From positions 1 to 34,646 of the forward strand of contig JAIPCE010000016.1 in NCBI GenBank assembly GCA_021738345.1: a DNA stretch of 34,646 bases, given 5' to 3'. The notes below the pieces were generated by a model. That model saw nothing but the letters and a program-made list of their open reading frames with translations. It was not told where the DNA came from and did not search any database. This document shows, in pieces, positions 6,103 to 12,803 of this stretch. This DNA comes from Rhodoferax sp. (GTDB lineage Bacteria; Pseudomonadota; Gammaproteobacteria; Burkholderiales; Burkholderiaceae_C). Numbering within the stretch: the stretch's first letter is position 1; every line of letters begins with the position of its first letter. The position numbers and the translations under genes were made by a program.

Positions 6103-9051
6103 CTAACTAGTCGACTTGTTCCAGGCAGTGACCTGCTGCGCCACATAGGCGTTGAGCGCCGAGAGCCCCGCCATTTTGGCGTCCAGGGCAGCATATTGCT
6201 TGCGCAAACGCGCCTCGACCACGGCTGCCCGGTTATTAACCCGGGTCTGTTCTGTTGCGTTACGTTCGAGTTCCTTTGTCAAGGCAGTCGACTTGTTGGT
6301 CACCGCACCGCCAGCACCAAGTACACCCCTGCCCAGAGCTGCCAACTTCAACGCAAACCCGTTGGTCTGGGCGTTATTGTTGTCCAGAGTAAAAAACTTG
6401 ATGAGCTCGTTGCCATTATTGGCGGCAACGCTGAGCTTACCGGTATTCATGGTCAAAGACCCGTCCAATTGGCGCTCTATACCCACATCCGACAGTCGCC
6501 GATAGACCGAGCCACCGCTGATCGAGCCCATTACATTGCGCAAAATGCTTTGCAAGCCCAGAACGGCCGCGTCACCCTGAAACAATGACGAGGTTTTGGT
6601 TGCAACGTCGTACTTGGTCAATTCCGTCAGTGATTTATTGAGCGCATTGAAAGCGGTGATGAAATCTTGCGCATTTTTGACCGTGGGTGTCACATCTTCC
6701 CGAATCGCCATGGTGATGGGTGACTTGGTTTCGGTACCCCCGACGTTGTTGTAATGGGTCGTTGTGGTGGCGTTGAGGGTAATCGTCACCCCGGAAAAGT
6801 TGCCGCTCAAGGTGTTGGTGCTGGAGCTTACCGCAACCCCGTTAATGCGGGCTTTTGCATCTGCACCATATTTGGGAGTGACATCCGACCCGGCCATGCC
6901 AAAGGCACCTGCCAGCGGGTCAAACGCCATGCGCGATAGCCCGTAGTCGTCGTTATTGGTACCGTCTCCGGTGTCGGTGGCCTGAATCCGGAAGCCAGCG
7001 GCTGATCCGCTTGCCTTGGAACTGAGTTGCAAACGGTCGCTGACCCCGTCAAAAAAGGCGGTCGCGATTACGCCTGCATTTGCGGCATTGATCTTTGCGG
7101 CAAGTGTGGTCACCGTATCGGTGTCTTTAACATCTATCGCCACATCTGAGGTCCCGCTGGTAGGGTTAAAAGTGGGCAAAGCCGCACTTGTGGTGGCCAA
7201 ATTATTTTGCGCGTTGGTGAGGGCCGTTTGCGCTGACGAAACGGCCGTCTGCGCAGTCGAGACCGCAGATTGCGCATTGCTGCTGACCAACGCCACCGAT
7301 GTGGCTACCGTTTGTGCTTCGTTCCGCACCGTGGTGGCCGCAGTGACTGCAGCCTGCGCTGCGTCGCGCGTAGCGGTGGGTGCCAGCAGGTCTTGCGCGG
7401 CCGAATCTGCAGCGGCCTGGGCGCTTACCTGGTCGTTTGTGGCATTGGTCAGGGTATTTGAGGCAGCCAGTACCGCTGCGTCGGCGTTGACCTTGCCAGT
7501 CAAGGCCGTCGCCTCTGCCCCGCTTGCTGCTGTAGCTGCCGACTGCGCGGCAGTTTTTGCAGTCGACGCGGCCAGTGCGGCACCCTTGAGTGCGGATGCA
7601 TCGGTGAGATCTGCCGTGGCGGTCAAACCGGCAGCCGTCGTTTGTACTGCCTGGGCGCTGACGACATTGCTCGCAGCAGTGATCGCAGAGCCAATGAGCG
7701 ACGAGGCGTCTGTCGAATCTGCCGCCGCGGTATATCCATCTGCCAGTGCTTGCACGGCAGGGTCGGTTGCGCCCAACACAGCATACGCATCGTTTTTGGC
7801 GACCAATGCGGCAGCCTCTGCGGCCTGCAGGCTTGGGGTGCTATGGTCATTAGCCGCCACAGCGTTAACCCAGGCGGTATAGGCCAATGAATAGTCCACT
7901 GCCTCAAGGGTCGATGTTCCGGCAAAAACTTCCAAAGCACTGGCGGCGCTGGAATCGGCAAGCAGTGCATTGTCTCTGGCCTGGTTTGCAGCCGTCAACT
8001 CGGCAGATCCCACCAGCCCCAGCGCTCCAAAGGCGATGTTTTTCGCCGAAAGGGCGGCATCCTCAGCCGCTTGCAGGCTCGGTGTGACATGGTCGTTTGC
8101 GGCCACGGCACCCACCCAGGCGGTGTAGGCGTTGGCGTAGCCCTGTGCCACTGGTGTACCCACCGCGTACGCAGTCAAGGCGCTTGCAGCCGAGTTCAGC
8201 TCAACCATGGCGGCACTGGCAGCGCTTGTGGCAGCGTCCGATGCGGTGGTCGCCGCATCCAGGTTGCCGTTGGCGCTCACAGTCGCGCTCTGGGCAGTTA
8301 CGTAGGCCTGGTCAGCCGCATTGGCGGCAGATTGCAATGAAGTCAGATTGGTGTCGGCCGCCGTCACGGCATTGGTAGCAGAAGTCAGGGTGGCATTGGC
8401 GGCAGTCAGCGCAGAGGTAAAGGGCAGCAGGTCGGCGTTCGCCTGCGTCAAATCAGCATTTGCGGTGTCGAGGGCACTCTGCGCAGTGAGCAGGCTTGCA
8501 TTGGCGTTGTCGAGATCGCTCGGGTCAGGCACCGCAGCATTGGCGGCCACCAAATCGGCCTGCGCAGAATCCAGCGCGGCCTGTGCGAGCGGGACGGCGG
8601 CCTGCGCCGCTGCCACTGCCGCACTATCAACAATCGAAGATCCCGAGACACCCGTCCAGCTACCCAGGCTGATCGTCAAGGTTCCGGCCCCTACGTACGC
8701 ACCTGCAGCCAGTGCCCTGGAAGATGTTTCCTGCTTTTGTGCCAATGCATCGACATCCAGGGTAAAAGATGCGACCGCGGCCGTATCGGTGGCAGTAATC
8801 GTAGCGGCTGCGGTATTGGAAGACGACGCGGTGCGCGAAACCCAGACCGAGGGCGATGCAATCCGGTTGGCGACATCGCTAAGCGCTGCAAACTGGGACT
8901 TGATCTCGCCAAAGGCCGATATTTGTGCTTTTTCGAGCGTTGCTTTCGACTCCAGTGCTTGCAGTGGCGCCTTTTCCAAGGCCGTCAACTTTGTGACTAT
9001 GCTCTCGGCATCCAGGCCACTACCAATACCCAGCGAAGAAATGGTTGCCAC
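6103..9051 (-). CDS. fliD: Flagellar hook-associated protein 2 / filament cap FliD with large Ala-rich insertion
   Basis: N-terminus VATISSLGIGSGLDAESIVTKLTALEKAPL and C-terminus typical of FliD. GTG start at 9051 preferred over ATG at 9066 because AGGAGG lies a few nt upstream of the GTG (ATGTGCAGGAGGCTGTT-GTG). Confidence 0.92.
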   Translation of the reverse strand: MATISSLGIGSGLDAESIVTKLTALEKAPLQALESKATLEKAQISAFGEIKSQFAALSDVANRIASPSVWVSRTASSSNTAAATITATDTAAVASFTLDVDALAQKQETSSRALAAGAYVGAGTLTISLGSWTGVSGSSIVDSAAVAAAQAAVPLAQAALDSAQADLVAANAAVPDPSDLDNANASLLTAQSALDTANADLTQANADLLPFTSALTAANATLTSATNAVTAADTNLTSLQSAANAADQAYVTAQSATVSANGNLDAATTASDAATSAASAAMVELNSAASALTAYAVGTPVAQGYANAYTAWVGAVAANDHVTPSLQAAEDAALSAKNIAFGALGLVGSAELTAANQARDNALLADSSAASALEVFAGTSTLEAVDYSLAYTAWVNAVAANDHSTPSLQAAEAAALVAKNDAYAVLGATDPAVQALADGYTAAADSTDASSLIGSAITAASNVVSAQAVQTTAAGLTATADLTDASALKGAALAASTAKTAAQSAATAASGAEATALTGKVNADAAVLAASNTLTNATNDQVSAQAAADSAAQDLLAPTATRDAAQAAVTAATTVRNEAQTVATSVALVSSNAQSAVSTAQTAVSSAQTALTNAQNNLATTSAALPTFNPTSGTSDVAIDVKDTDTVTTLAAKINAANAGVIATAFFDGVSDRLQLSSKASGSAAGFRIQATDTGDGTNNDDYGLSRMAFDPLAGAFGMAGSDVTPKYGADAKARINGVAVSSSTNTLSGNFSGVTITLNATTTTHYNNVGGTETKSPITMAIREDVTPTVKNAQDFITAFNALNKSLTELTKYDVATKTSSLFQGDAAVLGLQSILRNVMGSISGGSVYRRLSDVGIERQLDGSLTMNTGKLSVAANNGNELIKFFTLDNNNAQTNGFALKLAALGRGVLGAGGAVTNKSTALTKELERNATEQTRVNNRAAVVEARLRKQYAALDAKMAGLSALNAYVAQQVTAWNKSTS

Positions 9052-9140
9052 AACAGCCTCCTGCACATTCTAGAAAACCGGATTGTCTAACTTTGGTCCT
9101 GTTTGTAAACCCGGAAAAGCCCATGATTTCTCAAACAACT

Positions 9141-9208: not shown

Positions 9209-10780
9209 TCAGCGCAGCAGGGCCAACACACCTTGTGGCAATTGGTTCGCCTGCGCCACCATCGCGGTACCGGCTTGTTGCAAAATCTGAGCGCGAGACA
9301 GGCTGGCAGTTTCTGTCGCAAAGTCTGCATCCTGCACACGGGACCGCGATGCACTCAGGTTTTCCACAGAGGTCGACAGATTGTTGACCGTTGTCTCAAA
9401 ACGCGATTGCAAGGCGCCGTAGCTTGCGCGCTGGCTATTGACTGCAGCAATCGATGCATCAACAGTAGCCAATGTGCGGGTGGCAGCGTCGACGGTCGAC
9501 ACATCCATCGTGCTGGCAGCCTGTAATTGGCTAGATGAGGAGATCGCAACAAAATACCCGGTCTTGGCTTCGTTGGTGGACGCAGCGGTAGATGTCGTAC
9601 CAAACGTCTTATCCGAATCAAGCGTCAAGGACCCATTGATATAAAAGGTATTTGCCGCCACGTCCGCATCCGCCGAAGTCGCAGGCGCTGAACCGACCAA
9701 CGCACCGGCCGCACCGATCGTCATGGAACTTGTTGCCGCTGAGCGGTTGCTGATCACAATATCATTGCCTGACTCGTTGGCCAGCGTGATGCCGGTGCCT
9801 GCCGCGTTCAGTTTTGCCGTCACCCCGGTGATGGATGCCTTGTCGTTAAAAGCCCTGATTGCCGCCGACAAGCCGTCCGCATCGTTTTTTGCACCGACGG
9901 AAAAAGTGACTTGCGCTGGCGTCGTCGCGTTGTCCGACAAAATATTCAGGGTGTAAGAACTGTCGACCGTGAAAGCAGTGGCATCGATTTCGGTCCGAGC
10001 AGTGGCGGTGACGCCCGTGCTCTTGGTCTGGGCATTGATATTGGCCGCAACCGTCTTGGCGCTATCCCCTGCCGCAATCGCAATCGTTGCAGAACCGGCA
10101 GCACCGTTGATGACGAAGCCTGCCGCATCTTCTGCGATTTTGGACCCTGACCCCAGCGCGACGGCAGTCGCTACCAAGGCCTGGGATGTAGTCGTCATGG
10201 CTTTCGATCCGGTCACCAGATCTCCGGCCGCGCCCGCTGTGGTGGCGACGACAGAACCCATGCGGTTGTTACCATACTTCGAGGTGGTGAAATTGGACGA
10301 GATGGCCGTGATAGTTTGGTTGGCATTGGCACCGACCTGGAAGGTAGCGGAACCAAAGCTTCCGTCGAGCAGGCTCTGACCGTTAAACTGGGTCGTCTTT
10401 GCAATGCGGTCAAGTTCAGAGGAAAGCTGGCCCACCTCGGCATTCAGCGCTGCGCGGTCGCTAGCGCTGTTAGTCGCATTGGCAGACTGCACCGCGAGTT
10501 CGCGAATGCGCTGCAAAATGGTGTTGGACGAGCTCAGCGCACCTTCTGCGGTCTGCGCCAGAGAAATACCGTCATTGGCATTGCGTGAGGCTTGGTTGAG
10601 GCCACGCACTTGCGAAGTCATACGCTCGGAAATACCCAGACCGGCTGCATCATCTTTGGCGCTATTGATGCGCAAACCCGACGACAAGCGCTGCATCGCC
10701 TGACCCAAGGATGCCTGGTTCAACGTCAAATTGCGTTGAGCACTCAACGAAGCGATATTGGTATTGATAGTGGCTGCCAT
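9209..10780 (-). CDS. fliC: Flagellin (copy 1)
   Basis: 523 aa; [54 protein letters not shown] ... [35 protein letters not shown]-type D0/D1 ends. Confidence 0.97.
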
Positions 10781-11213: not shown

Positions 11214-12803
11214 ATGGCTTCAACTATCAACACCAACATTCAGTCGCTGACTGCGCAACGCAATCTCAGTCAGTCACAAATGTCGCTCGCCACTTCGATG
11301 CAGCGGCTGTCCTCGGGTATGCGCATCAATAGCGCCAAGGACGATGCCGCCGGCCTGGCCATCAGCGAGCGCATGACCTCGCAAATTCGGGGTGTCAACA
11401 TGGCGGCTCGCAACGCCAACGATGGCATCTCGCTCTCCCAGGTGGCTGAAGGTGCGCTAGGGAGCGCCTCCAGCGTGCTGCAGCGCGTCCGCGAACTGGC
11501 AGTTCAGTCGGCCAATGCAACCAACTCTGCGTCTGACCGGGCGGCGCTCAATGCCGAGGTGGGGCAACTCACCGCCGAACTCGACCGCATTGCAAAAACT
11601 ACCCAATTTAACGGACAAACCCTTCTGGATGGCAGCTTTACTTCGGCCAGCTTCCAGGTCGGTGCGAACGCTAACCAAACCATTATTGCCACCACATCCA
11701 ACTTCAGCACGGCCAACTACGGCAACAACCGCATTGGCGCTATCGTGGCACCATCTACGGGTGGGGTTGGTGATTTGATCATGGGGACAGCTATGGCTGG
11801 TACCAATCGGACTGAGGCCGTACCCTCGGGAACCTTTGGATACAGCTCAGTAACGGACGATATCTTGTCCATTAGCGGAACCACCGGTTCCACCACGATC
11901 GCGATTACTGGCTCCCAAGCGGGCACACTGATCGGAGACACCGCCAAGTCAGTGGCCGCGAAAATAAATGCTCAGTCCGGCACCACGGGTGTAACCGCTT
12001 CAGCGCGAACCGAGCTGGACATCGAAGGATTTGATCCCGCTGGCAATTACTCTCTTGACGTAGTGTCCAATAACCCACTAGCAACACCAGTAACAGTGGC
12101 GTTTAATATCGGCGCTGGTTTGAAAACCCCTGACGATCTTGCGGCTGCCATTACCGCGTTCAACGACAAATCGTCCCAAACCGGTGTGACTGCCAAGATC
12201 AATGCTGCAGGAACCGGTATCACGCTGACCAATGATTCCGGTGCAGACATTGCCATCAAGAGTTCTTTGGCGTCTGCTGGTAGCTTCACAATCGGGAAGT
12301 TTGCGCTCGCTACACCCAACGCTGAAGATCTGGGAAGGCCGGTTGCGCCTGACACTAGCGTCCACGTTATTGGTGCCGTTACTCTGGATTCGAACAGCAG
12401 TTTCAGCATCGGCTCTTCAACTGGAGCGCCGAACCCCAATGGTGGAGTCAGCTTTTTCACGGGTCTGAGTTCGGCCAGCCAGCTTCAGGCCACGGCATCG
12501 CTAGACGTGTCCACAGTGGCTGCTGCCACGCGCACTTTGTCCACCGTAGACTCGGCAATTTCTGTAATCGCCGGTCAACGCGCAAAATTCGGCGCCTTGC
12601 AGTCGCGTTTTGAATCCACGATTGCCAGCCTGAACACCACGTCCGAAAACTTAAGCGCATCCCGCTCGCGCATTCTGGACGCCGACTTCGCACTGGAAAC
12701 CTCGAACCTGACCCGCACCCAAATTCTGCAACAAGCCGGCACCGCGATGGTGGCCCAAGCCAACCAGTTGCCGCAGGCGGTGTTGCAGTTGTTGAAGGGT
12801 TAA
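11214..12803 (+). CDS. fliC: Flagellin (copy 2)
   Basis: 529 aa; [54 protein letters not shown] ... [26 protein letters not shown]. Divergent from copy 1. Confidence 0.97.

Follow-up and report, generated by a model that had tools for sequence, protein, structure and literature searches.

The fliD Gene and Its Locus

What does the flagellar filament of a Rhodoferax species carry at its tip when its cap protein is about twice the usual length? The question is raised by the fliD gene of the window, that is, the whole stretch of DNA analysed here, which is one entire contig of 34,646 bases from a genome of 4.87 Mb (346 contigs, completeness about 91%). The frame at 6103..9066 on the (-) strand is uninterrupted and comprises 987 codons counted from the first GTG. 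The GTG at 9051, preceded by AGGAGG, is likely the start of the gene, giving a product of 982 aa with the coding part at 6106-9051 (-) and the stop codon at 6103-6105. The main features are as follows:

6103..9051, (-) strand: fliD including the stop codon, 982 aa, likely GTG start at 9051 (open frame, Pfam FliD_N and FliD_C, start alignment with relatives)
9057..9062, (-) strand: Shine–Dalgarno sequence AGGAGG, 5 nt upstream of the GTG (sequence)
8731..9021, (-) strand: FliD_N domain (Pfam PF02465), residues 16-112 in the 987-aa frame
7171..8655, (-) strand: insertion, residues 133-627 (495 aa), in the D3 beta-hairpin loop (alignment with uninserted relatives)
6169..6867, (-) strand: FliD_C domain (Pfam PF07195; Pfam profile search)

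The Pfam search detected FliD_N (E 9.1e-19) before the inserted segment and FliD_C (E 6.7e-33) after it, both above the Pfam cut-offs, and no domain between them, i.e., none inside the insert. The gene is flanked by flagellin on one side and by the FliS/FliT genes on the other, and flhC, flhB, and flhA lie farther along the window. A genome-wide search revealed a single copy of full-length FliD. Both domains, the flagellar gene context, and the single copy identify the product as the filament cap FliD, which likely shares the pentameric cap role of the known FliDs. The window also contains two divergent flagellin genes, at 9209-10780 (-) and 11214-12803 (+), encoding proteins of 523 and 529 aa with a Flagellin_IN motif in each. 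Downstream of fliT, at 1903-5191 (-), the frame of a Sel1-repeat protein, with 10 repeats, slightly overlaps that of an outer-membrane efflux protein.

A 495-aa Insertion in the D3 Head

The initial annotation held that FliD is interrupted by a segment of ~490 aa at 7170-8634, making the protein ~980 aa long, about twice the usual. The alignment with uninserted relatives bore this out: the insertion comprises 495 aa, its coordinates (measured 7171-8655) had been placed correctly within a few codons, and the product of 982 aa stands against 460-500 aa in the ordinary FliDs of relatives. The insert is rich in Ala (32%), Thr (12%), and Ser (10%) and carries a strong net negative charge (39 D/E vs 8 K/R).

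When an uninserted relative was aligned to the P. aeruginosa FliD structure 5fhy, whose numbering was shifted, by count, to allow for the 18 residues ahead of residue 78 that are presumably a tag, the insertion site corresponded approximately to residues 132-136. Head 2/D3 of P. aeruginosa FliD spans residues 104-230, and the neighbouring heads touch at residues 165-171 (PMC5072837). The insertion site falls within Head 2/D3, away from the 165-171 inter-head contact. The outer plate of native caps consists of D2-D3, and their plug of D0-D1 (PMC12221982).

Heptad Arms of the Insert

The insert can be divided into two arms flanking a central region:

8170..8625, (-) strand: outgoing heptad arm, predicted helices 143-173 and 177-294 (AlphaFold2, heptad columns)
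7900..8142, (-) strand: tip module copy 1, from residue 304, with W312 (E 2.9e-24)
7633..7896, (-) strand: tip module copy 2, residues 386-473, with W394 (E 3.3e-31)
7201..7596, (-) strand: return heptad arm, predicted helices 486-554 and 556-617 (AlphaFold2, heptad columns)
7222..7276, (-) strand: local 21-bp (one heptad) tandem repeat near the return-arm base, 2.6 copies, 76% matches (Tandem Repeats Finder)

The helical, coiled-coil nature that had been proposed for the segment agrees both with its periodicity and with the AlphaFold2 helices of 118, 69, and 62 residues. Ala and hydrophobic residues follow a period of 3.50 residues that stays phase-coherent along the whole window insert (power 6.0-6.2 vs 2.2-2.4 at the 99th percentile of shuffles), which is the heptad periodicity of core residues found in coiled coils. 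Two successive core columns of the outgoing arm are 82% and 86% Leu/Ala-type, with Ala prevailing in the second. The insert of one relative (L116) has the same 3.50-residue period, and in the remaining inserts it is weaker or missing.

The 21-bp periodicity of the DNA is wholly accounted for by the protein (codon-shuffle test, z near 0), indicating that the heptads are preserved at the protein level and not at the level of DNA. Recent DNA slippage was rejected as the source of the heptads, given this z value and the merely local extent of the DNA repeats. No 21-bp repeats were found in the inserts of the G062 and G028 genomes.

The lengths of the two arms flanking the module co-vary (r=0.985, n=8, related species), as is expected if the arms pair. 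Topology forces an antiparallel course on the arms, because the insert begins and ends in a single beta-hairpin. The Alacoil, an antiparallel Ala-rich coiled coil, is defined by close helix packing. The arms resemble it in their Ala-rich heptads and in being antiparallel by topology.

A Conserved Module at the Tip

A helical module of ~80 aa is located near the middle of eight inserts and is present in the window as two tandem copies. It follows the pattern AYxxWVxAIxANDHxTPxLxxAE..., in which Y, W, N, D, P, L, E, and A are invariant across nine units. Its score against shuffled sequence (mean z 14.7) is far over that expected from composition, the median for the arms being 1.5-2.4. Thus, the most conserved part of the insert is the tip module and not the base.

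No recognisable module was found in the G028 insert, and the G066 insert has, by inspection, a degenerate one at most. The G028 insert of 907 aa (L031:1-4017) lacks the W..ND module; around SDIGPLRSAQQKAQADYAASL it apparently has longer repeats, and its tip may differ. Downstream of this fliD on the opposite strand (L031:4940-6770), a 610-aa frame resembles, by eye, a TPR/O-GlcNAc-transferase-type glycosyltransferase, the product of which could glycosylate flagellar Ser/Thr residues.

Within the genus, the module was detected in FliD alone, and the search of 396 other genomes of the family did not detect it. Neither the module nor the insert had a match in Pfam, PHROGs, or PDB, and these searches revealed no similarity of the tip module to known binding domains. 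A phage or mobile origin was rejected, as no match was found in phages or viral contigs and the plasmid matches among those listed covered the FliD core alone.

Predicted Structure

The helices and the hairpin of the insert are predicted by AlphaFold2 and by topology. The model of the short form (L075), built from 31 sequences, has a pLDDT of 88 and consists of a helix (138-177), a tip (182-200, 206-229, 231-240), and a second helix (243-272) between the D3 strands 123-133 and 276-279. The structure search with this model gave FliDs as the best matches (E down to 1.7e-26), confirming the D1-D2-D3 fold. The window FliD (38 sequences; pLDDT 76.7, pTM 0.45) was modelled on the same plan with longer arms: out-helices 143-173 and 177-294, back-helices 486-554 and 556-617. 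Confidence in this model drops at the tip and in the regions flanking it (pLDDT 27-60 around 288-349 and 449-486). The predicted arms of the window insert would measure ~20-23 nm at 1.5 A per residue. Against the viral structure library, most matches were generic coiled coils and tail proteins with a very low TM-score.

Both models place the insert outside D3, where it emerges from a single hairpin at the start of this domain, between the two strands; this disagrees with its being buried in the standard D2/D3 fold. The anatomy of the insert is well supported, whereas a role in binding or sensing and the exposure of the arms on the assembled cap are inferred.

Distribution and History of the Insert

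Inserts in the same loop occur in ten other species of one Rhodoferax (Comamonadaceae) clade, nine of which were measured (100-907 aa). The lengths are 907 aa in G028, where the contig ends within the 5' end of the gene, 538 in L116, 536 in G062 (closed chromosome), 370 in L062/G085, 156 in L063/G098, 147 in L066/G072, 144 in L075/G067, 122 in L074, and 100 in G066; L129 is a fragment in which the insert starts. The comparison suggested in the initial annotation therefore established the insertion as real but not unique to this genome: it is a clade-specific, length-variable insert with a conserved tip module. Nor do all close relatives share the same long FliD with a described function, as many have no insert; the ordinary FliDs belong to close relatives outside the clade and also to some inside. 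An assembly artefact or chimeric contig might be suspected in so fragmented a genome, but its probability is negligible: identical junctions recur in independent assemblies of ten other species, including the closed chromosome, which refutes misassembly.

In the PF07195 scan of 103 genomes of the genus, 75 exceeded the cut-off, most of them with the usual FliD length. The open-frame lengths given for G015 and G003 disagreed with their sequences and were left out. The short-form insert searched by BLAST, within its sensitivity, in 401 genomes of the family (few of this genus included) matched the genome of the window only, a result that bears on the other genera. In trees built on the FliD core with the insert left out, all the inserted FliDs fall into one clade (SH-aLRT 94; 83/90 in the careful tree), which also includes six uninserted FliDs. 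One exclusive clade of inserted sequences was not rejected (p-AU 0.185). The simplest reading, though not proven, is that the insert was gained once and afterwards lost at least once.

The strongly supported sister pairs differ widely in insert length: 538 aa in L116 and 122 in L074, 536 in G062 and ~150 in L063 and L075, 907 in G028 and 370 in L062. The difference between sister species reaches fourfold with the site kept, and the module is kept as well save in G028 and G066. The insert is dispensable, since some members of the clade do not have it. Inserts evolve faster than the core, and pN/pS is higher in the insert than in the core.

Such lability could be expected of a tolerated expansion, i.e., Ala-rich low-complexity heptads accumulating in a permissive loop of a dispensable head and selected only for solubility or exportability. 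The arms show little residue conservation, which together with the variable or missing insert and its raised pN/pS fits this explanation, as does the swimming of P. aeruginosa without FliD heads (PMC8533109). Nevertheless, we consider it rather unlikely, as it does not account for the eight invariant residues in nine units of the tip module and their z of 14.7, for a heptad phase preserved while synonymous codons show no extra repeat, or for the matched lengths of the two arms.

It is somewhat less probable still that the arms serve a structural or protective purpose, packing on the cap or the upper filament, or bundling, and so stabilising or shielding the cap without a specific target, for example against shear, proteases, flagellum-using phages, or grazers. 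Five copies of Ala-rich heptads per cap could bundle, and the strong negative charge could repel; D3 rests on the D2 of its neighbour (PMC12221982), which could bring a D3 insert within reach of the neighbouring subunits. However, a range of 100-907 aa on the same cap is ill-suited to a fixed contact, and conservation peaks at the tip, not at the base. In addition, insert length showed no relation to flagellin length in the measurable loci; for the same reason, matching of the insert to flagellin size was rejected.

Comparison with Known Systems

The FliDs of Salmonella (9gnz), P. aeruginosa (5fhy), and E. coli (5h5v) share the core domains, their order, and the fold with the window FliD but have a short loop in place of the 495 aa. 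An extra domain within FliD is likewise present in C. jejuni (D4) and H. pylori (the D2-D5 head), the latter being likened to the window FliD by description and not by sequence alignment. The D4 domain of C. jejuni is inserted in the D1 helix bundle and is thought to be globular (PMC7316729), whereas the window insert maps to D3 and is a helical hairpin of variable length. Other proteobacterial long FliDs (frames of about 650-915 codons) are enlarged like the window FliD; in six of them, drawn from the class and the phylum, the extra parts look flagellin-like and beta-rich by inspection, and Ala reaches at most 27% per 60-aa segment compared with 42% here. The other long FliDs retrieved by their large frames were rejected as carriers of the same insert type, being frame extensions or different inserts.

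The FliDs of L036 and L049 (same genus) and L141 (same family), ~710-830 aa long, have apparent tandem beta-type head repeats (T-V-x-F ... G-G-L-x-Y-T-A/S ...), unlike the helical insert. A Rhodoferax-like FliD fragment (L137:188-1090) contains a different insertion with Flagellin_IN motifs in the same D3 loop region, and this loop may be an insertion hotspot.

Trimeric autotransporters are stalk-and-head adhesins with a variable coiled-coil stalk and a conserved end module, and they are separate outer-membrane proteins. The window insert has a similar plan of stalk and end module; here, though, it is a hairpin inside a cap subunit and its binding is putative.

Proposed Function and Biological Meaning

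Flagella still form when FliD heads are removed, enlarged, or exchanged, even for the D2-D5 head of H. pylori (PMC8533109). For the accessory D4 domain of C. jejuni FliD, a part in adherence is suspected (PMC7316729). Because heads are replaceable in this way and D4 is a suspected adherence domain, we read the insert as a stalk carrying a tip. By this analogy, contact with surfaces or particles would be its likeliest role.

In the proposed arrangement, each cap would bear five inserts, one per FliD subunit, each a helical hairpin hung on the D3 head. One Ala/Leu heptad arm would extend about 20 nm out from D3, the small helical module, duplicated in the window species, would form the turn, and the second heptad arm would lead back to the D3 hairpin from which the first departs. 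Capping and building of the filament would stay with the FliD legs (D0/D1), while the arms would hold the tip module off the cap, bringing it into contact with surfaces, polymers, particles, or cells. Arm length would then be a variable spacer and the tip the functional element. We give about an even chance to the explanation that the insert is a stalk-plus-tip appendage on the flagellar cap, the tip module of which contacts surfaces or particles. More tentatively, and with the balance against it, the five arms could be length-tunable and carry a new clade-specific binding module, turning the flagellum into a long-reach organ of touch or capture with a reach of about 5 to 60 nm across species, set by the number of heptads.

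Enlarged FliDs are already known, and an insertion in the FliD head is of a known kind. In the open-access literature, we found no account of a coiled-coil insert in FliD or of a Rhodoferax FliD, and no description of a D3 insert that combines an Ala-heptad stalk of variable length with a conserved tip. The results suggest that the flagellum tip in one branch of the freshwater genus Rhodoferax bears a previously undescribed reaching or binding device.

Flagellar caps have mostly been studied as assembly machines of near-fixed size, and the purpose of the dispensable FliD head is still a question. The insert suggests that the export of a long helical hairpin and its carriage at the filament tip are possible. 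The natural series found here, with one site, a shared tip module, lengths of 100-907 aa, and relatives with no insert, makes it possible to test whether tip functions dock on the head and whether reach is under selection.
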